A program made the position numbers and the translations under genes. A stretch of DNA of 64,000 nt from Mesaphorura yosii (Eukaryota > Arthropoda > Collembola > Poduromorpha > Tullbergiidae). Each line of letters starts with the position of its first letter. Within the stretch, counting starts at the first letter, position 1. Where the stretch lies: assembly GCA_009869945.1 (NCBI GenBank), contig WIXG01000054.1:186001-250000 (forward strand), read 5' to 3'. Under the pieces are notes generated by a model. The model saw nothing but the letters and a program-made list of their open reading frames with translations, was not told where the DNA came from and made no database searches. This document shows, piece after piece, positions 44,644 through 62,087 of this stretch.

Positions 44644-47600
44644 TTAGCCGATTTCTCCTCCAGCAGCCTCTTCCATGCTTCTGCCCTCGCTGCCTTCGTC
44701 TTCCTCGCCGCTGTTCAGCTTATTCTCCGACTCGAGGTAGATCCTCACGGCCGTCAAGTGTGAGCTGCTTTGCTTGTGCTCCTCCAAGTCGGCTCTGCTG
44801 CTGTAGTACGTTTCGCACGTGTTGCATTTGTACTGGCCATGGCCAAGGCCTTGAGTCTTTGATTTGGGACCTGGTCGATGTGTGCTGTCGCTCGTTGTCG
44901 TTGCAGCGGATCCCGCACCGTCGATATCTTTTGCCGGAGCTTTGTTCACTGCCTGCAGATGCTTCTGCGTCAAGAAGTGACGCTGAAGGTCACGCTGGCC
45001 TTGGTAACTTGTTCTGCATGTTTCGCAGGATACGCGCGCCCGCTTCCTCGGACTCGGGCCTGCTCGCGGCTGTGCCTGGCTCGAAGCGCTGGCGTGGTGT
45101 CCAGGTGAGACGTGGCCTAACCCTGCGCCCTCATCACTCGATTGCATGTCCTCCTCGCTCTCATTCTTATTCTCTTCTTCTTCCTCACCATCGCCATTCT
45201 CCTCCTCCGAATTCTCCGTGGCCCTGGTCCCACTTTCGCGTCTCCGTGCCTCCAACTCGGCCACCATTTGCTGGTGAGTGTTTGTCAAGTAGTGCTTGCG
45301 CAGGTCTTTGTTGCTGCAGTAGAATTTATTGCAAACTTCGCACTTCGGGCGAGTTTTCTTGTTGGAGCTGGAGCGACTTGAGCTTGGTCTTGCGAGCGCT
45401 CCGAGAAAGTGACCGATGCCCACAATGTCACGCACGCTGCGTGCCTCTTTCTTGCGGTTCTCCACACCCTGGCTGCTCCTCTGCTTTGATCCGATTGTGA
45501 TAACATTCTGGCTTGCTCCTCCAGTTTGATTTTGAACATTGGTACGGTGGAGCAAGGTGCGGAAGTGGCGCTGGAGGTCGTAGTTGCCGCGGTACGACGC
45601 ATTGCACACTTCACAGACGAGACGGCTTCCCGAAGCAGGTGACATCGTGTCAAGGTTGAGCGTGGTTCCCTCCTCGGATTCCTGCTCTTCATCTCCTGTG
45701 TCTTCCTCCTCTGAAGGCTCCAACTTAGCGTCCTCGACTTCCTCTTCCGGCTGAAGTTCTGGATGCACTTTCTTCATGTGCATGTTCAGAGACACCAGGC
45801 TACTGAAAGGTGAAGAGCAAACTGCGCACGATGTTGAGGTTGACGAGGCTGCCGCCTGAGGCTTGACTGGCGAAGTCGACTTGGGCTTAACGGGCAGTGC
45901 AATTCGTATATCGGCAGCCGCGCCTCCCGATGCCACCATCGCCAAATGCGAATTGGTCGCGAAATGCCTGCGCAAATGATTGCCACTCAAATAGAATGTG
46001 TTGCACGCTTCGCACTTGAAGTGACGTCTTGGATCACTAGCGCCCTGCATGGCCGTGATGCTGGTGCGCACCGATTTGGACGTACTGGGCGCATACACTT
46101 GTGCGTCGGAGTTGTTGGTGTCATCATCACTTCCAGTTGATTGCGCTTCCCCGGCAGACCTGGCGCGAGCAAAGTTCTGCTTGTGCATCGGTGTCTCGTA
46201 GTGTCTTTTAATCTGACGTGCTGATTTGTACGTTGTGTCACAAGTCTCGCAGTGGAATATTACGCTGCTGCCAGAAGTTTCAGCCTCTTGATCTTCTGAA
46301 TCCTCGTCCACTCCCTCTAGAACCACATCTGGGATGTCACGTTGAGCTTCGACCTTCCGCTGGTGAGCCTGTGACATGAAATGTCTGCGCAGATGGTAGG
46401 AGTCCTTGAATCTGAACCCGCACACGTCACAGCTGAGCTTCTTTGGTGGTGATGACGTGGCTATGGTCTCCAAGGCTGGCCCTCCAATTTCCTCCTGACT
46501 CAAGCTCAAATGCGCGGTGAGGTAGTGATGCTCCAAGTCAGCGGCGCTTGGAAAGGTTACCGCGCAGTTTTCGCATTCAAATTCGTATGCGACTGTTGCA
46601 TCGTCAGCAGGAGCCATAAACGCATGTGCCTTGGCCAGGTGGGTCTTTGTTGTTTGATGGCGCTCTAATCCCCGCTGGGATTCGAACTCGACAGTGCACA
46701 AGTCGCACCTGTATGGACGAGGTGTCGGGCGAGGAGGCGAATAAGCTCGTTGTGGTGGGTGACGCTGTCGCTGGCTCTGGCGCCGGGGCGCAGCCTCACT
46801 CTCTCTTCGAACTTCTTCATCTTCGTCTGCGGTACCCGTGCTCGCACGCAGCTTCTGTTGATGTGCTGCGGTAAGAAAGTGTCTACGGAGCTTTGATGCA
46901 TCTGACACCGAGGTCTCACAGACTTCGCATTTGAACTCAGAGGGTTTGTGCTCTTTGGAGGAGTTCTCGGCGCCTTCCTGTGGACCTTCACTTTGAGCTT
47001 TCACGTTCGCCTTATGAATGGCTGTACCAAAATGGCGCTTGAGGTGATTAGACGATCCGTACGATGTGTGACACACGGAACAGCCGAAATTGCTCTCCTG
47101 GACTCGGGGCTGTGACTGTTCTGCTTGTTGAACTGCTACTGCTTGGTCGACTACAACTACCGGTTCCGATTGTAACTGCTCCTGGCTTTGGTCTTGTATT
47201 GGTTCTGAACTGTCGGTAGTATTGGCCTCAGGCTCAGGCTCAACTTGTGCACTGTTCTCAGCATCAGCTTTAGCTTTGGCTTCCGCTTCAACAGCATCAT
47301 CATCACGGACTTCAGGTGTTTCAGTGTCGGCAGCATTGGCATTGGTGTTAGTTTCAGTTTCTGCAGCGTCCGTTTTGGTTTTAGCATCTACGTTATCAGT
47401 TTCGGTGTCGGGTTTATTACCAGTTTCGGTATTGTCTTCTTCAGACTCTGAATCTGATTCTGGTTCCGACTCCGGAGGCACAAATTCAGGATGGTGTTTG
47501 CGCGTGTGCATATTCAGCTGGGCCATATTACGGAATCGCTTCTCGCAGTGATCACACTTGTAAGGCTGGACGGAGGCACCGCTCGGGCGTGGCGGTGGCT

Positions 47601-48072
47601 CTGTCGGAGGCGATACCGCAGGCATCTGCTGGTGTTGCTCCTGAGGTGGATGACTAAATGGATTTGCTTGCGCCTCTGAGGTAGAATGTGTCAAAGTTGC
47701 CGTACTCAAATCCATGCTTTCTTGCTGCTCCGTCGAATGGTGCGTAGGCACAGGAGGCAATTGATAAGGCTGCGAAGTACCCATAAATCCATTTCCATTG
47801 TAATTGTAGTTGACGCCAATCTCAGTTAGCGTGCTGTTGGAACTTCCAGAATGTGCGTACGCTGGTTGCGGGGATTGAAAAAAGCCATCAGCTGGTTTCG
47901 GTGTTGAATAAGTTCCGGGAACGCCCTGAAATTGCATGATCTCGTCGTCCTGGTCATTTGATTCGTTTAGCAGGCTGCCAATAGCCTCCATTCCTGCGCT
48001 GATTCCATTGGGTACGTCGCCGGTTGTCGAAGTAGCATGGACGAGAGAATTAGGATCTTGTGGCTCCCACAT
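44644..48072 (-). CDS. Large protein with 13 C2H2 (U1/JAZ-type) zinc fingers
   Basis: A single uninterrupted reading frame of 1142 residues from the ATG at 48072 (AAAGATGTGG). Upstream, the context GTGCAG|AAAG suggests that the start sits just after an acceptor, so a 5' UTR exon lies further up. I count 13 fingers. Most have C-x2-C-x12-H-x5-H spacing, for example CSVC ... LKRHFGTAIH, CDVC ... LRRHFMSQAH, CETC ... LQRHFLTQKH. Such long H-to-H spacing is typical of U1-C/JAZ/ZNF346-type fingers, which often bind dsRNA, unlike tandem Kruppel fingers. The two fingers that end in KHHPEF and KVHPEL use other spacing. Between fingers lie long acidic and repetitive segments (ETDNVDAKTKTDAAETETN, SEEDTGDEEQESEEG). 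The N-terminal 160 residues are Gln/Ser/Pro-rich with no domain. The function is unknown; RNA or DNA binding is likely. Confidence 0.85.
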   Translation of the reverse strand: MWEPQDPNSLVHATSTTGDVPNGISAGMEAIGSLLNESNDQDDEIMQFQGVPGTYSTPKPADGFFQSPQPAYAHSGSSNSTLTEIGVNYNYNGNGFMGTSQPYQLPPVPTHHSTEQQESMDLSTATLTHSTSEAQANPFSHPPQEQHQQMPAVSPPTEPPPRPSGASVQPYKCDHCEKRFRNMAQLNMHTRKHHPEFVPPESEPESDSESEEDNTETGNKPDTETDNVDAKTKTDAAETETNTNANAADTETPEVRDDDAVEAEAKAKADAENSAQVEPEPEANTTDSSEPIQDQSQEQLQSEPVVVVDQAVAVQQAEQSQPRVQESNFGCSVCHTSYGSSNHLKRHFGTAIHKANVKAQSEGPQEGAENSSKEHKPSEFKCEVCETSVSDASKLRRHFLTAAHQQKLRASTGTADEDEEVRRESEAAPRRQSQRQRHPPQRAYSPPRPTPRPYRCDLCTVEFESQRGLERHQTTKTHLAKAHAFMAPADDATVAYEFECENCAVTFPSAADLEHHYLTAHLSLSQEEIGGPALETIATSSPPKKLSCDVCGFRFKDSYHLRRHFMSQAHQRKVEAQRDIPDVVLEGVDEDSEDQEAETSGSSVIFHCETCDTTYKSARQIKRHYETPMHKQNFARARSAGEAQSTGSDDDTNNSDAQVYAPSTSKSVRTSITAMQGASDPRRHFKCEACNTFYLSGNHLRRHFATNSHLAMVASGGAAADIRIALPVKPKSTSPVKPQAAASSTSTSCAVCSSPFSSLVSLNMHMKKVHPELQPEEEVEDAKLEPSEEEDTGDEEQESEEGTTLNLDTMSPASGSRLVCEVCNASYRGNYDLQRHFRTLLHRTNVQNQTGGASQNVITIGSKQRSSQGVENRKKEARSVRDIVGIGHFLGALARPSSSRSSSNKKTRPKCEVCNKFYCSNKDLRKHYLTNTHQQMVAELEARRRESGTRATENSEEENGDGEEEEENKNESEEDMQSSDEGAGLGHVSPGHHASASSQAQPRAGPSPRKRARVSCETCRTSYQGQRDLQRHFLTQKHLQAVNKAPAKDIDGAGSAATTTSDSTHRPGPKSKTQGLGHGQYKCNTCETYYSSRADLEEHKQSSSHLTAVRIYLESENKLNSGEEDEGSEGRSMEEAAGGEIG

Positions 48073-48649
48073 CTTTCTGCACCTGCGCAATCAGAGTCAG
48101 ACATTATACTTATGAATGAGCATGATCCATATCTAATAATCTGCACATACGAGCCTGTGTTTTGAATTATACCTTCTAAGTCTTCTGTAACTTAGTTTCG
48201 ACGTATGGACCGTTCAGGACCCAAATAACTAAAGGACGACTGCTGTGTCCCTCAATTACTGGCATTTATCAGCAGCCACGATAATTATTATAATGGTAGC
48301 AACGACAAAGAAATGGTATGGAACTCAAACTCAATCAAAACAGTAAACTAATTAAGCCAAATAGTCTAAAAATGAAACGGAATGAAAATGAAGCCGACTG
48401 GGCTAAGCACGGTTTGAAAACATGCAGCACGAGAAACGGCTTCGTGGCCGTTGCAAGGAAGCCGAGCCAACACTCACCAACAAACAAAACAAATGGGGGC
48501 AATGAATGCTTGAGCAGCGCATTCCACAAACTAAATCACGTATGTGGAATGGAATGGGGATTTAATTTTATTGCTGGTCAGTCCAAGTTATTGTTAAATC
48601 TGTATGTACAATCATGAAACACTTCATCGTGCATGTTCAGTGTTCCAAA
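48073..48649. other. Intergenic between zinc-finger genes
   Basis: No exon is recognised. Contains the upstream part of the 13-finger gene and the 3' UTR of the next minus-strand gene. Confidence 0.35.
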
Positions 48650-51129: not shown

Positions 51130-51618
51130 ATGATCAGACTACTAGCATTTTCAGCCTTTTTTCTGCTGATCCAGGTGATCGCCATTGCTGAGAGTGGCAG
51201 TGGTGACAACGAGTAAGTTTGCACTTGACCTTCATATATATCGTATCCGTCGCCCAAAAGTTGAAGTGAATTTGACATTTGTTTCTCAATATGTAGCAAA
51301 GTGGAACTGATGATCAGCGTCAACTCACAAGATGTTTTCTTGGCTTGTGACGAAGCGAGCCTGTCGAATCCCGTAAGCGGACCTGGCGACCAGCGACGAA
51401 ATGTACATCCCAATGCAGCCGCCGCGTGTGAAAAGCTGGATGAAATCGACGGTGATTTCGACAATCTAGTTCAGGAGGCTCGACCATGCACCAAAGAGTA
51501 CAACAAACAGGATGTCTCGGTTTTGGGGTACTACAAAGGAAAGAAAGTCGAGTTTATGAAGTCCTATCCAAACCCATGCGTCATGAATTCTTGGGGAGAC
51601 GGTCTGTTCAAAATCTGA
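51130..51618 (+). CDS. Subtilisin-inhibitor-like (SSI family) secreted protein
   Basis: Exons 51130-51212 and 51297-51618 join in frame to 134 residues, with donor GTAAGT and acceptor TATGTAG. The first exon encodes a signal peptide, MIRLLAFSAFFLLIQVIAIA. The mature part matches the Streptomyces subtilisin inhibitor family over its length: HPNAAAACEKLDEIDGDFD, then CTKEYNKQDV, then YYKGKKVEFMKSYPNPCVMN, ending GDGLFKI. Four cysteines stand where SSI has its two disulphides. By alignment with SSI (reactive site C-P-M-V-Y, P1 Met) the P1 residue here is Lys in C-T-K-E-Y, which would favour trypsin-like proteases. The family occurs mainly in actinobacteria. Here the gene has an animal intron and lies between animal genes, so transfer from bacteria is the likely origin. 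The intron and signal peptide argue against contamination. Target protease is unknown. Confidence 0.8.
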
Positions 51619-53849
51619 AGAATTGGCTATTAGATTATTCTTCTAAATCTTAAAGGAACAAATTATATGTCAAATATGTAATAATTAAAAATAACTCTAC
51701 ATATGGCTTCATCTTTCATTCTATTCATTCGGGATGCTTGTTGACTCGAAGAGGTCAATGTCGATGTCAATTTTGGAAGCAACGGTGGCATAAAAGTCTC
51801 AAACCTGCGCTCTCTTGCGGCATTGAAGGTGGAACCAGTAATATCCATGAATCTAGAAAATGGGTAAATCCCCTTGACTCATGACTCGCATAATTTTCGA
51901 TGAAATTCACGACATATGAGACAATCGAGTTTAGCGGCTGCTACAAATCGGTCGTTAGCATTCTAGCGAGATCGTGTCAACGGCCGACCTGGCGATTAGT
52001 CACTGATTTCCTGAAATTCTTTTTTCCGGGTTCAACAACCTCAGATTTGGCACTCGGGTTCATGTGGAGTTCATTTCCTGGTTCACGGAGCCAGAACTTC
52101 ATAAATACGTGCACAGTGCGCATGAAATTCAGTGCCAGAAATCAAAGAGACCCCGGGAGCCCAACAACGAAGACAAGAAGGAGAGGCAGCAGTCCCATCT
52201 GCAACTGACACTAACACTTGAATTTAGAATTTGGGAGCTTCTGTCATTGTAACTTGTTGTAAATGGCAAAGCTTTCCGGTTCTACATTTTTGTGGAAAGA
52301 ATACTGAATTTATGAAGTTGAATGCGAAGCTGACCCAACGAAGAGCGCAGCTGACTCTAGCTCCCCAGCGGTACTCAGAGTTTGAGTACTTATGTATTGC
52401 ATTTCGGCCAGCCGAGTGATAAGTCTTCAAACCCCGAGTGCCGGTGGAGAGCCATACCTGACAAACTGCAATTCATCAGTCACCGCATTCGCACCGCATG
52501 GTCATTCGTCGCCTCAACTGGACTGAACAAGCATCATGCATTCCCATTTCCCGGAGTGGTAAGAATAGCGTGGAGTACTGATGCCATTTTGACCGCAGTG
52601 CTGCCTGCTATCCTTACTATTCTTGGCTATGGGCATCCTTGCATGAAATCATTGACGATTTGACTAAGATTCGGGAATTGAGGCTACCAGTCTGAAGTTC
52701 TTTTCTTTGCAATTGGACAATTGCTTCCTCGTTCAGGGTTCGACGAACTTGCGGGTGAACTCATCGACCTTATTCTTAGCTTTTCTTCCTGGACCACGAC
52801 TTCATTCGCATTTCTGGACGCCCGGCTCCGTTCGTCACCCCCTGAATCCTGCCAACCGACGTGGGACGATGAGATCGGGACAAGCCCCGAATGTCTTCAT
52901 CTAAGTTCAGCGACTGTCGCCTGTCACTGCGCTGCTTGGGCGCACAGGCTCAGTTCCTGAATTAAGATGAAAATATTTCACTCGACACCAGCGACAGTCA
53001 TACGAATTTCTCTGGACGGCGAGTTCATGTTCTGTTTGTGTGTCCGATTCCTTTCTTCGGAGACAAGCACTACATGTTCTCGTCGTCCGGATAACTTTCA
53101 TCCAGGAGCCCCTGAACTTCGCTACCTGGGATGAGTTGTATTTGACTCCAGAAAATCTCTGCTTTCAGTTGTGATCATACTCGATTAAAGCACTCATTTT
53201 CTGGTATCCATTGCAATTCTTGTCACCATCCTGAGAGAAGCGGCAGTGGCGGCTTCAATTCATGCATTTGGCAAGGCTGACTTGACTCGTGACTTTTGAG
53301 TAATGTGGTTCAACTTCGGAGAATGCGAATCTTGCATCAAAATGTCCAACGTGATTTGAGCAAGGTCCCCACTCTTCTCAGTCGGGCCAAAAGCTCAACA
53401 ACCACTCGACAGGTCAATGCTACTACAAAATGTTTTCACGCTCAACTAAATAGTCCGTGTTTATGCTTAGCTAACGACAAATAAAGTAATGATTGCCTGT
53501 TTTTGTCTCTCGGTGTACTTTTGGACTAACTTGATTTTTGAATACATACTCAGGAATTGACTCTGAGCCCAATGGAATTGTCAGCAGCGCTTCGTGATGT
53601 TGTTAAGCTTGATCAAAAACCCTCTTTGGCTGGATGGCCGATAATCCTGATATTTTATCTCTCATACACAATTCCAGGCTGAATTGAAGCTCGGGTCAGT
53701 TGCTGCTGATAATGAGCACTTTATGTACTTGAAATGAACACGTTCACCATGTTTACTCTCCAGCGTACAAACTTTTGAGCCTGAAACGACCAGGAGTTCA
53801 TTCGTAACTCAGTTTTACCACCAAAAGTTCCTTTACATCTGCAACAAAA
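51619..53849. other. 2.2 kb between SSI-like gene and UGT, no intact gene
   Basis: No complete gene is supported. Short coding-like pieces appear, for example at about 53020-53095 (RRVHVLFVCPIPFFGDKHYM before a stop), which recalls the start of insect-type UGTs, and at about 53560-53640 (ELTLSPMELSAALRD), which recalls the end of the UGT donor domain. They may be remnants of a decayed UGT copy beside the intact one, but the match is weak and by eye only. Confidence 0.25.
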
Positions 53850-55580
53850 ATGAAGGCTCCGTTGATCTCGAGCTTGTTCGCAGCCCTGCTGCTGGCACAA
53901 CTGAGCACTGCAGTCCGAATCTTGTTTCTGTTTGCCGGAGGAAACATGAGTCACAAGATCAGCGTGTGGCCCTTCGTGCTGGGTCTCGCGAATCGAGGCC
54001 ATCTCGTCACGTTCATCTCCAGTCATCACAAAACGCCTGTACCGCACGCCAACGTGACGGACCTCGCCCCAGAGGCACTGGTCAAGGAAACGCTCCAGAC
54101 TTACAATGTAAATCGGTTTCAGGCTCGTCAAGCAGGTGTCCAAGGCGAGCTCTGGGAACAGTACGACGAAGTGGCGCTGCGGGCCTGCGACTTGCTGCTC
54201 AAGGCGGCTAAAAGCGAGACGACAATTCGCGAGATTCTGTACCCACCTGCTGGCTCCCACTTCGACCTTCTAATCCTCAACTCCGTGTACGGAGAGTGTG
54301 GGTTCATCTTCGCCACCCATCTTCGCACAAAGTACATTGTATTCAGCACCACCTTGGTCGTGCCTTGGTATCACACGACATACGGAATTCCTTGGCAGGC
54401 TTCGTGGATCCCGAACATGTTCGCGAACTTTGACCCTAAGCCGCTTTCGTTTCTTACGCGAGTAAGTAATTTCTTGTATTACGCCACGACGGCTACGCGG
54501 AGCACCGCCATCAGTGCCGGGATTGAAGCTCTGCATGCACGTCACCTGCCCGAGTCGGCCGGACCCACCTTCATGGAAATGGAACGCAATACGAGTCTCG
54601 TTTTTATTAGCAACCACCCCGCCATTGACTTTGCGCGCCCAATGCCACCGTGGATTGTACAGATTGGCGGGATGGCGTGCTGGACACCAGTTGGGCAACT
54701 TTCTCAGGTAGGGCTGTTTAACTTGTGACCAAGCGAGACGTCGTGGATACCACAACTCCTCAAAAGGTCATTCTAGGCTACACAGACATGTTAACTTTCC
54801 TTTTATTCTGAATTCAATAGAAGTTCCAAGAGTTTATGGACGGTGCGCAAGACGGCGTAATTCTCATCGCTTTTGGCTCCACAATTGACTTGAACAAATT
54901 GTCCACGGAGCACCTCAACATGTTCTTCTCAATGATGAGGAAATTCTCGACGGTGCGATTCATCTGGAGATGGACTGGTGAGTTGCCGAAGGAAGCTCCA
55001 GCCAATTTACTGGCGGCAGACTGGCTTCCACAAAGAGAGATCCTGAGTAAGAAACTTTCGTTTGTGCAACATTAATCATGCCGTTGTAGGTTGAAAGAAA
55101 GTATTTTTTTAAGATCATCCAAACATCCGTGCCTTTATGACGCATTGTGGAGTTGGAAGTGTAACGGAGGCAGCTTGTTTCGGAGTGCCCTTGATCGGCG
55201 TTCCTTTATTCGCTGACCAAGATTTGCAGGCATTTCGAATCGAAGCACAAGACCTGGGCGTGTATCTGGAGGTTGGTGATCTGTCCCAAGACTCCCTCAA
55301 TGCAGCAGTGAACGCCATGCTCACGCGCCCAGAGTACAAGAAGAACATGCTGGCTCGAACTGGGTTAATAAAGGACAGACCGTTGAGTCCAGTCGATACG
55401 GCGGTGTACTGGGCGGAATTTGTGCTCCGCCACGATGACATGTCCGCCTTCAGGCCAATGGGCCTGGATCAGTCGCCTTTCGTCAGGCACATGTTTGACG
55501 TCTTCCTGGCGCTGGTGTTTGCAGCATCGGCGGTGCCGGCCTTCATAATGTACGCGATCGTGAGGTGCATGCGGAGATAA
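53850..55580 (+). CDS. UDP-glycosyltransferase (UGT), copy 1
   Basis: Exons 53850-54707, 54821-55046 and 55114-55580 join in frame to 516 residues. A signal peptide (MKAPLISSLFAALLLAQLS) leads into ILFLFAGGNMSHKISVWPFV, which holds the SH pair of the catalytic histidine region, then GLANRGHLVTFIS. The donor domain has FGSTIDLNKL, WLPQREIL and MTHCGVGSVTEAACFGVPLI, equivalent to the UGT signature (THCG in place of THGG). DQDLQAFRIEAQDLGVYL follows. Near the end is a membrane helix (VFLALVFAASAVPAFIMYAIV) and a short basic cytosolic tail, RCMRR. The enzymes transfer sugar from UDP-sugar to lipophilic acceptors in the ER lumen. The acceptor is unknown. A close paralogue, with the same intron positions and phases, lies 6.5 kb away on the other strand. 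Confidence 0.92.
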
Positions 55581-59503: not shown

Positions 59504-60311
59504 ATGTCTTCCGTCAAGCTTCACCAGTTCAAGGTTCTCACGTTCGATTGTTATGGGACACTGATCGATTGGGAACAGGTAAGTATTAGAAGTTGAAGAG
59601 TTAATTTATTCGATGAATTCTGAAAGCTGGTGTTTATCACTTCATCTTCAGGGCATCATCAACGCCCTGAAGGAGACTGCCGTTTACGGTCTTGTGCCCG
59701 ACCACGAACTTCTTTCCAAAGTCAGCCTGTTCTCGACAGTTATCGAAAAGGAGCACCCTACTATGCTGTACCCCAAAGTGTTGGAGAATGCTTTTATCCA
59801 GCTCGCTGCTGAGCTCGGAGTCGAGTCATCCGATTTCGTACAGGAGCAGGGGCAGGCTTTCGGAGCGAGCATCAAGAACTGGCCCGCATTCCCTGACACT
59901 CCTGGAGCACTGCAGTACTTGCAACAAAATTACAAGCTCGTGATACTGTCCAACGTGGACCGCGACTCGTTTGCGTATTCTGAGGCCAAGCTTGGAGTCA
60001 AGTTTGACATGATTGTCACGGCTCAGGATGTCGGGAGCTACAAGCCGGATCTAAACAACTTCAACCAGGTGCTGGGCAAGATTAAAGAAGAATGGGCCTT
60101 TGGGATGGGGGACGTCCTGCACACTTTCCAGTCGCTGTTTCACGATGCTGTGCCCGCAACAAAGCTCGGACTCCACACGTCGCACATAAATCGGGCTCCG
60201 TTCATCAAAGACGGTCCTGGGAAAGCTAAGCCGGAAGATGAGTATCGTTTGGACTTTGAATTCCCGACGCTGGAGGCCATGGCTGTAGCTCACAGAAATG
60301 AGCAAGCATGA
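59504..60311 (+). CDS. Haloacid-dehalogenase-like hydrolase, type II
   Basis: Exons 59504-59578 and 59652-60311 join in frame to 244 residues. HAD motif I is TFDCYGTLIDWE, with the nucleophile Asp at residue 15. Motif II is LVILSNVDRDSF, motif III is the Lys in SYKPDLNNF, and the last acidic region is LFHDAVPATKLGLHTSHINR. The DxYGTLxDWE start and the HDxxPAxxxGL...INR pattern belong to L-2-haloacid dehalogenase-type proteins. These are common in bacteria and fungi and rare in animals. The enzyme removes halide or hydrolyses small phosphorylated or halogenated substrates; the actual substrate is not known. Start chosen as the first ATG (ACGATGTC). The poly(A) signal is at 60357-60362. This may be a gene acquired by transfer, but animal homologues were not searched. 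Confidence 0.85.
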
Positions 60312-60391: not shown

Positions 60392-62087
60392 TCCATCTTC
60401 GCAAGCACTTAATAATTGTGTACATCACCAGAGCGGGTACCGCCAATGCCACAAGCACCAGAGCCAGAAGCACGTCAAACATTTGTCTAACAAAAGGAGA
60501 CTGCTCCAGCGCTAGTGGTCTGAAAGCAGACATGTCATCGTGTCGAAGGACAAACTCTGTCCAGTACACCGCCGTATCAACAGGACTCAACGGCTGGTCT
60601 TTAATCAGGGTGGATCGAGCCATCATGTTCTTCTTGAACTCCGGTTTCGTCAGTACAGCCCGCACTGCAGCATTCAGCGTCTCGAGAGACAAGTCACGAA
60701 CTTCAAGATAGACGCCAAGCTGTTGAGCCTCAATTCGGAACGCCTGTAAGTCTTGGTCTGCGAAGAATGGAACGGCGATCATGGGCACTCCGTAACAAGC
60801 CGCTTCGGTCACGCTCCCAGCTCCACAGTGCGTCATAAAGGCGAGAATCTTGGGGTGATCTGTAAGAAAACATTACTCTCAATTAACGACCTAGTGAGCA
60901 TTAAACTTGCAGTAGTGAATTCGGTCTTACTCAGAATCTCCTTCTGTGGAAGCCAATCTGCGGCCAACAAATTGGTTGGAGCTTCTTTTGGGGAGTCACC
61001 GGTCCATCTCCAGATAAAGCGCACCGTCGAAAATTTCCGCATCATTGCGTAGAACATATGGAGCTGCTCCGTTGATAGCTTGTCCAAGGGAATCGTAGAC
61101 CCGAAAGCAATAAGAATCACGCCGTCTTGTGCGTCATCCATAAATTCTTGAAATTTCTATTCAATCAATACTGCGCATGAAAGTTAATTGGTGAGATTGG
61201 CGATTGGTGAGACTTGTTACCTGAGGTAGGCTTCCAACAGGTGCCCAGCACGCCATTCCACCAATTTGCACGAACCATGGTGGCAAGGGTCGAGCAAAAT
61301 CAAAAGTGGGGTGGGTATTGACCAGCACCAGACTTGTATTGCGTTCCATCTCGATAAATGTTGGTCCAGCTGACTCCGGCAAATAGCGTGCGTGAAGAGC
61401 TTGGAGTCCAGCACTGACGGTTTCCGTTCTCGTCACCCTCGTGGCGTAGAACCAGAAATTATGCAAGCGATCGAGAAATGGGAGAGGACTGGAACTACCT
61501 GCAAGCGGGGCTGCTATGTCTGGAATCCAAGACGCCTGCCACGGGAGTCCAAAAGAAGTGTGAAACCAGGACTCTATCGTGGTGGGACAGTACTGAATGT
61601 ATTTGACACGGAGGTGTGTTGCAATGATGAAGCCACACTCGCCGTACACAGCATTGATAATGACCACGTCGTATTTGATTTCTGAAGGCGGATACAGCGC
61701 CTGACGAAGGTGCTCATCTGTCTCGCCCGCCTTAAGCAACAGTTCGCAGGAGTGCTGCGCGAATTCGTCGTACTCGTCCCATGTTTCACTTTCCAGCCCC
61801 TGTTGTCGTGCCTGGAACCGATTCACACCGTACGCCGTTGCCGTAGCCTGGACCAGTGCCTCGGGTGCGAGGTCCGTCACATTAGCGTGTGGCACAGGCG
61901 TCTTGTGGTGGCTGGAAATGAACGTAATGACATGACCCCGATTCGCGAGGCCCAGGACGAAGGGCCAGATGACCGTTTTGTGGCTCAAGTTCCCACCGGC
62001 GAACAGAAAGAGGATCCGGGCACCTGTAACCAGATGGACACAGAGCACGGCAAAAATGACTGCCAATGTCACGAACCTTACAGCCAT
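60387..62087 (-). CDS. UDP-glycosyltransferase (UGT), copy 2
   Basis: Exons 62087-61221, 61156-60931 and 60859-60387 join in frame to 521 residues. It keeps the same layout as copy 1: a signal peptide (MAVRFVTLAVIFAVLCVHLV), GGNLSHKTVIWPFV, GLANRGHVITFIS, a UGT signature (MTHCGAGSVTEAACYGVPMI), WLPQKEIL and a C-terminal membrane helix (VLLALVLVALAVPALVMYTII) with a basic tail, KCLRRWK. Both introns are at the same positions and phases (0 and 1) as copy 1. Many long blocks are identical in sequence, for example SSHHKTPVPHANVTDLAPEA and ADWLPQ. The two are paralogues in opposite orientation. The substrate is unknown. Confidence 0.92.

Follow-up and report, generated by a model that had tools for sequence, protein, structure and literature searches.

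The Streptomyces subtilisin inhibitors (SSI; PF00720), which we take to be the Streptomyces subtilase-type inhibitors of MEROPS family I16, are canonical inhibitors with a loop that binds to the protease as a substrate would. SSI proteins are regarded as actinobacterial with two fungi as published exceptions, Choanephora cucurbitarum carrying 11 SSI-like genes and Absidia glauca three, which were judged to be horizontally acquired, the trees being weakly supported (PMC5238444, in the text available). Replacement of the P1 residue of SSI by Arg or Lys confers trypsin inhibition and all of the P1 replacements tested kept some subtilisin inhibition (original work cited in the accessible portion of PMC10004685), while the PDB entry 2tld is, by its title, an engineered SSI bound to bovine trypsin. 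Among springtails, Folsomia candida carries a cluster comprising ACVS, IPNS, cmcJ and cmcI (PMC5490193, available part), and beta-lactam genes have been described in several Collembola, in no other hexapods analysed and in one nematode, Plectus sambesii (PMC10531068, available part). Springtail genomes are public in some number, an analysis of 78 springtail species having been published (PMC13084967). The words inhibitor, subtilisin and Streptomyces are absent from the main text of the Folsomia candida cluster paper (PMC5490193), as are subtilisin and inhibitor from the main text of a 2026 survey of arthropod fusion genes arising from horizontal transfer (PMC13389597). A search of the open-licence literature, as far as its texts were accessible, found no report of SSI in an animal. 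The tick 'subtilisin inhibitor' BmSI-7, met in a reference list, was set aside as unrelated, being presumably a TIL-type inhibitor, and an echinoderm review was discarded as a report of animal SSI since SSI is mentioned only in its reference list. With fungal SSI published (PMC5238444, available text) and no animal SSI in the literature accessible, the gene described here would be a further member of a known family, in a host of a new type.

The gene lies in a window of 64 kb (the whole stretch of 64,000 nucleotides that was analysed, without any N). The preferred reading, to which we give a probability of about 0.6, is that it encodes a secreted canonical serine protease inhibitor in an arthropod, most likely a springtail, descended from an actinobacterial SSI gene gained directly or via a fungus, with its likeliest role being against microbial proteases. 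The features of the locus, in window coordinates, are as follows.

51130 to 51618, + strand: SSI gene, ATG at 51130 and stop codon ending at 51618, gene structure read from the DNA.
51130 to 51212, + strand: exon 1, 83 bp (27 codons plus 2 nt), with the start codon, the predicted signal peptide and the first mature residues.
51130 to 51189, + strand: predicted signal peptide, residues 1-20, from hydropathy, with cleavage after AIA placed by inspection.
51213 to 51296, + strand: predicted intron, 84 bp, GT-AG, phase 2, as judged from the sequence.
51297 to 51618, + strand: exon 2, SSI domain and stop codon, from profile, PDB and predicted-fold matches.
51403 to 51573, + strand: part matched by PF00720, residues 64-120, from the Pfam profile.
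51493 to 51495, + strand: predicted P1 codon, Lys94 (C-T-K-E-Y), from alignment columns and homology to SSI.
51684 to 51689, + strand: possible polyadenylation signal ATTAAA, 66 bp past the stop, seen in the sequence and perhaps due to chance.

The two exons (83 and 322 bp) flank an 84 bp intron with the donor GTAAGT at 51213 and an acceptor AG ending at 51296, and the start ATG stands in the context CAAAATG. Spliced, the frame encodes 134 amino acids with a hydrophobic N-terminus; unspliced, the exon 1 frame reaches a stop at 51216. Exon 1 encodes the hydrophobic stretch MIRLLAFSAFFLLIQVIAIA followed by ESGSGDN, with the hydropathy peak over 12 residues at AFFLLIQVIAIA. The cleavage site after AIA was placed by the -3,-1 rule rather than by a dedicated predictor and is our assumption; the predicted intron sits at the boundary between the signal peptide and the mature domain. 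The initial annotation had placed the gene at 51130 to 51618 with a GT-AG intron near the signal peptide boundary and a secretion signal; its start and stop coordinates are correct, and the splice sites, the open joined frame and the hydrophobic N-terminus are present on the DNA. Removal of the intron is predicted from the DNA sequence and secretion of the product from the putative signal peptide. A search with 411 bp around exon 1 found no second copy in the genome and no donor gene for the signal exon.

Membership of the SSI family is supported by several comparisons. The only Pfam match of the protein was to SSI (PF00720, E 1.1e-13, residues 64-120), and the same profile gave three hits in the genome of 93 Mb and no hit in any of 14 control genomes. 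The score (51.4 bits; curated cut-off 23.9) and the lack of a match in the 14 controls show that the similarity is not a chance one. Three NCBIfam models of Streptomyces protease inhibitors also matched, all below their own equivalog or subfamily cut-offs, of which the longer model NF009716 recognised the N-terminal part as well (residues 14-127, E 7.8e-14, below the cut-off of that model). A sequence search of the PDB gave seven matches with E < 0.001, all to SSI-type inhibitors (best 6i0i, E 1.4e-8), the remaining five matches, from E 0.55 upwards, being unrelated. An AlphaFold2 model of exon 2 (106 amino acids; mean pLDDT 86.5, pTM 0.76) retrieved by Foldseek 13 structures at E ≤ 0.001, these being SSI, SSTI and sermetstatin structures with 3ssi the best (TM 0.79, rmsd 4.2, E 2.9e-6). 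The input alignment of 32 sequences contained 31 bacterial SSI proteins among 240 found, so the agreement in fold is partly built in and speaks for compatibility rather than for an independent discovery; the model supports exon 2 being compatible with the SSI fold. The initial annotation had assigned the protein to this family on the motifs HPNAAAAC, GDFD, CTKEY, KKVEF and NPCVMN...GLF, all of which are present, and the assignment stands on the profile (E 1.1e-13), on the PDB chains (best E 1.4e-8) and on the predicted fold. A lack of significant similarity to SSI, named there as a result that would speak against the proposal, was looked for, and the similarity proved significant (PF00720, E 1.1e-13).

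Cys45, Cys72, Cys92 and Cys122 are kept, and all 39 canonical bacterial rows of the alignment have Cys at each of these columns; from these positions the two family disulfides are probably retained. His65, Gly105 and Asn120 likewise fall at columns invariant in the 39 canonical rows. The predicted reactive loop is C92-T93-K94-E95-Y96 with P1 two residues past the third cysteine, an assignment that assumes homology to Met73 of SSI, and several Streptomyces rows, P0112 and P0043 among them, have the identical CTKEYN loop. Lys is the commonest P1 residue of the canonical rows (20/39), followed by Met (8/39) and Arg (7/39). Identity to any row of the tree reaches 38-39% at most, and three departures from the family pattern were seen: Lys98 replaces a Pro four places past P1 that is present in 39 of 39 canonical rows and in 52 of 55 rows of the YGGP type, Tyr107 stands where 37 of the 39 canonical rows have Trp, and the segment from Cys45 to His65 is longer by about a dozen residues. 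Together these could alter or abolish inhibition. The change of Pro to Lys98 leaves profile membership untouched, but lowers confidence in strong inhibition.

The PF00720 search of the genome revealed two SSI loci beyond the window, on contigs C297 and C824, that the initial annotation did not include.

C297:38274-38639, - strand: second SSI locus (L002), intact, from PF00720.
C824:17127-17351, - strand: third SSI locus (L003), apparently decayed, from PF00720.

In the C297 gene a short hydrophobic exon is followed by a phase 1 intron with two possible acceptor AGs, nine bases apart and both in frame, and P1 is Met. Its protein carries the YGGP-type motifs CTMQYGGP and RTNGCEISRWN and is 49% identical to row P0121; a YGGP-type model built from 55 bacterial rows gives it 129.6 bits, the canonical model 49.3 bits. 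The C824 locus has two in-frame TAG codons, Tyr in place of the fourth cysteine and Gly at P1; it scores 46.8 bits as canonical against 28.2 bits as YGGP-type and shares the phase 2 intron of the window gene, whose protein itself scores 69.7 bits as canonical against 31.1 bits. A 7TM-like ORF beside C824 had been considered as a gustatory receptor; it matched no Pfam family and the label was dropped. The decay of the C824 locus, with its in-frame TAG codons, replaced fourth cysteine and P1 Gly, lends something to the idea that the window gene too persists as DNA having lost inhibition, either as a decaying copy or in a new non-inhibitory role, and the conserved Pro that the window copy lacks past the reactive site may be a ground for doubting that it inhibits. 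The frame and splice sites of the window gene are intact, however, and its four cysteines and P1 Lys are kept, and we consider loss of inhibition distinctly improbable.

The window gene is flanked by animal genes on contig C54 (297,175 bp) of a draft assembly (1127 contigs, 93,006,257 bases). Two of the flanking ORFs served for comparison.

44647 to 48090, - strand: zinc-finger ORF upstream of the SSI gene, one of several zinc-finger ORFs, tested.
53850 to 54725, + strand: UDP-glucosyltransferase (UGT) ORF downstream of the SSI gene.

Farther upstream in the window are P450, bromodomain and Na/Ca-exchanger ORFs, and no bacterial neighbour genes were seen around the SSI gene. The GC3 of the SSI gene (0.54) is close to that of the zinc-finger ORF (0.55) and the UGT ORF (0.65), compared with 0.92 for a Streptomyces SSI gene. 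The animal neighbours that the initial annotation had described are therefore confirmed in the zinc-finger and UGT ORFs flanking the gene on the 297 kb contig. A draft of 1127 contigs leaves some room for contamination or misassembly having placed an SSI gene in an animal contig. Against this stand the intron, the host-like GC3, the animal ORFs on both sides along 297 kb and the second intact, intron-bearing SSI gene on C297, which is adjoined 2 kb away by an ORF for a V-ATPase subunit (E 1.4e-87). Contamination was rejected on these grounds (intron, host-like composition, animal neighbours and a second copy elsewhere), and we hold it to be scarcely credible.

Other ORFs of the window may be mentioned for their own sake. 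An ORF at 59616-60308 (+), possibly another transferred gene, is similar to the type II haloacid dehalogenases of model TIGR01428 (E 2.7e-21, under the model cut-off). A second UDP-glucosyltransferase ORF at 61164-62087 (-) is similar to that at 53850-54725 (+) on the opposite strand, and between the two lie a Glyco_transf_49 ORF and the dehalogenase-like ORF.

The genome contains 66 matches to PF00379, which we take to be the arthropod cuticle family; contig C314 holds 13 of the 66, some with in-frame stops. On contig C420, at about 15.7-33.3 kb (L103-L104), there is a beta-lactam-type cluster with an NRPS open frame of 3156 amino acids bearing three condensation domains, beside which stands a CmcJ-family ORF (E 8e-73, 245 bits, cut-off 80). 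The cluster also has a 2OG-Fe(II) oxygenase ORF, and C420 carries an ORF of the D-cysteine desulfhydrase family (E 6.9e-43, below the model cut-off). By analogy, the NRPS may be called an ACVS. A further C420 ORF was read as a cmcI homologue; it matched no Pfam or NCBIfam family and the label is unproven. More condensation-domain matches occur outside C420, at C394:29898-31250 (-) and at C1089:6083-6622 (-), the latter with an in-frame TGA. The cuticle domains together with a CmcJ-bearing NRPS cluster like those of Collembola make a springtail the most likely host. A search of the genome for COX1 gave no mitochondrial match.

For the phylogenetic placement of the window gene, 283 domain hits were reduced to 97 rows by removing the fragment L128 and the duplicates L108 and L109 and thinning the rest by shared three-letter words; a second tree left out nine rows, namely C824 and eight bacterial rows, chosen mostly for their long branches. 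The main branch of the 97-domain tree (99/100) has 41 rows on one side, including the window gene and C824, and 56 on the other, including C297. The row nearest the window gene is the plasmid copy of Streptomyces sp. BHT-5-2, with weak support (80/70). The branches of the animal rows are long and their amino acid composition is odd. In the second tree the AU test did not reject moving the window gene off the canonical side (p 0.366) or moving C297 to it (p 0.388); with the long branch, the p of 0.366 makes the exact place of the window gene tentative. In the tree with bacterial SSI called for by the initial annotation, the window gene grouped with canonical actinobacterial rows at 99/100, as a long branch among rows that held no eukaryotic SSI from other species. 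A bacterial affinity is probable on that branch and, taken with the intron, the animal neighbours and the host-like GC3, it gives support to the domesticated horizontal transfer that the annotation had proposed.

The number of acquisitions bears on how the three copies are related. A clade of the window gene with C824 gave p 0.433 in the first tree, and a clade of all three animal copies was rejected there (p 0.004). Divergence of the window and C297 copies after a single transfer, as paralogues, would fit with the intron near the signal peptide boundary common to both, and a clade of the two is not rejected by the AU tests (p 0.123 in the first tree and 0.122 in the second), but such a clade costs 31.0 and 24.7 log-likelihood units in the first and second trees, respectively. 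A single acquisition further sits badly with the rejection of the three-copy clade (p 0.004), with the opposed profile scores (C297 129.6 YGGP vs 49.3 canonical; window 69.7 canonical vs 31.1 YGGP) and with the different intron phases (2 in the window gene, 1 in C297), and we regard it as unlikely. Two acquisitions in this genome are likely, being favoured by the profile scores, by an additional residue in the YGGP type and by the differing intron phases, with the AU tests giving no proof. A broader proposal, which we put forward tentatively and at a little under even odds, is that the springtail lineage took up bacterial SSI on two or more occasions, drawing on two deeply divergent subfamilies (the window gene with P1 Lys and its decayed sister C824; the YGGP-type C297 with P1 Met), each refitted with a signal peptide exon and an intron of different phase, and that together with the Streptomyces-like beta-lactam cluster these form an actinobacterial-style defence kit gathered piecemeal. 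If true, an animal would have assembled both an antibiotic and protease inhibitors of actinobacterial style, and the intact C297 copy of another subfamily would show one protein family recruited repeatedly.

Of 396 Actinomycetota genomes sampled, 19 contained PF00720, in 18 cases above cut-off; of the plasmid records matching it, 7 of 24 were actinobacterial (six Streptomyces and one Nonomuraea), the other listed ones being weak (E ≥ 1), and none of 50,697 phage records contained SSI. In a large protein database the window protein alone shared words with six proteins, none of them scoring. Among the matches listed there (120 of 1560 and 120 of 121) the named rows were all actinobacterial, many rows being unnamed, and no animal SSI appeared by name; the published fungal SSI was also missing by name, so this is weak evidence of absence. 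Springtails often eat fungi, and this feeding habit is one reason to consider that the immediate donor was not an actinobacterium but a fungus of the Mucoromycota whose own SSI was of bacterial origin. The SSI-like genes of Choanephora cucurbitarum (11) and Absidia glauca (3), judged to be horizontally acquired in the available text of PMC5238444, are another. The nearest row, however, is a Streptomyces copy, if weakly so (80/70, in a tree that held no fungal SSI sequence), and a fungal intermediary seems to us rather doubtful as the specific route.

On the preferred reading, the SSI gene would have come from an actinobacterium, either directly or with a fungus as intermediary, and become fixed in the nuclear genome, acquiring there the base composition of the host, a spliceosomal intron and a signal peptide of eukaryotic type, with both family disulfides and the exposed reactive loop kept after transfer. 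The loop C92-T-K94-E-Y would enter the active site of a serine protease like a substrate, Lys94 occupying the S1 pocket, and the enzyme would be blocked. With Lys at P1, the protein is predicted to act on trypsin-like enzymes and to keep some action on subtilisins, and on the basis of this residue, the P1 mutants of SSI (PMC10004685) and the complex 2tld, both trypsin-like and subtilisin-like proteases are expected targets. The likeliest role would be the blocking of microbial extracellular serine proteases in the gut, saliva or haemolymph; that the protein inhibits, what it targets and what role it has are inferred from its sequence. The same gene and mechanism could instead serve as an internal regulator rather than in antimicrobial defence, with the digestive or immune trypsins of the animal itself as the target. 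A P1 Lys suits trypsin-like enzymes (PMC10004685, available part) and a trypsin-like ORF lies elsewhere in the genome on C420, recognised by reading the sequence only, but the P1 mutants of SSI lead one to expect that subtilisin action is kept as well (PMC10004685, available part), and regulation of the host's own trypsins is accordingly held to be the less probable role, a minority view beside defence against microbial proteases.

Many transferred genes have already been described in springtails, and the protein is more surprising here than the transfer. The arthropod SSI copy, as a compact and easily expressed protein, offers a way to study the use that an animal makes of a bacterial protease inhibitor, and raises the question of whether it blocks the enzymes of fungal and bacterial attack or regulates trypsins of its own.

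Compared with the known systems, the window gene is like SSI of Streptomyces in its predicted fold, four cysteines, HP motif, C-T-K-E-Y loop, Gly105, Asn120 and predicted secretion, and unlike it in lying in an arthropod genome with an intron and a GC3 of 0.54, in the insert of about a dozen residues before His65 and in having Lys98 for Pro. The YGGP-type SSI of Streptomyces, Arthrobacter and other actinobacteria belongs to the same Pfam family, and C297 shares its CTMQYGGP...RTNGCEISRWN, whereas the window gene is canonical and without the YGGP marks. With the SSI of Choanephora cucurbitarum and Absidia glauca it has in common being a eukaryotic SSI-domain protein of secreted size for which a bacterial origin was judged, whereas the Choanephora genes are, by their description, single-exon except for one and stand in 11 copies, against three in Absidia (PMC5238444, available text). 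The beta-lactam cluster of Folsomia candida is alike in being a set of bacterial-type genes that a soil arthropod retains in its nuclear genome, and differs in that it encodes biosynthetic enzymes where the window gene encodes a protease inhibitor (PMC5490193, available part).
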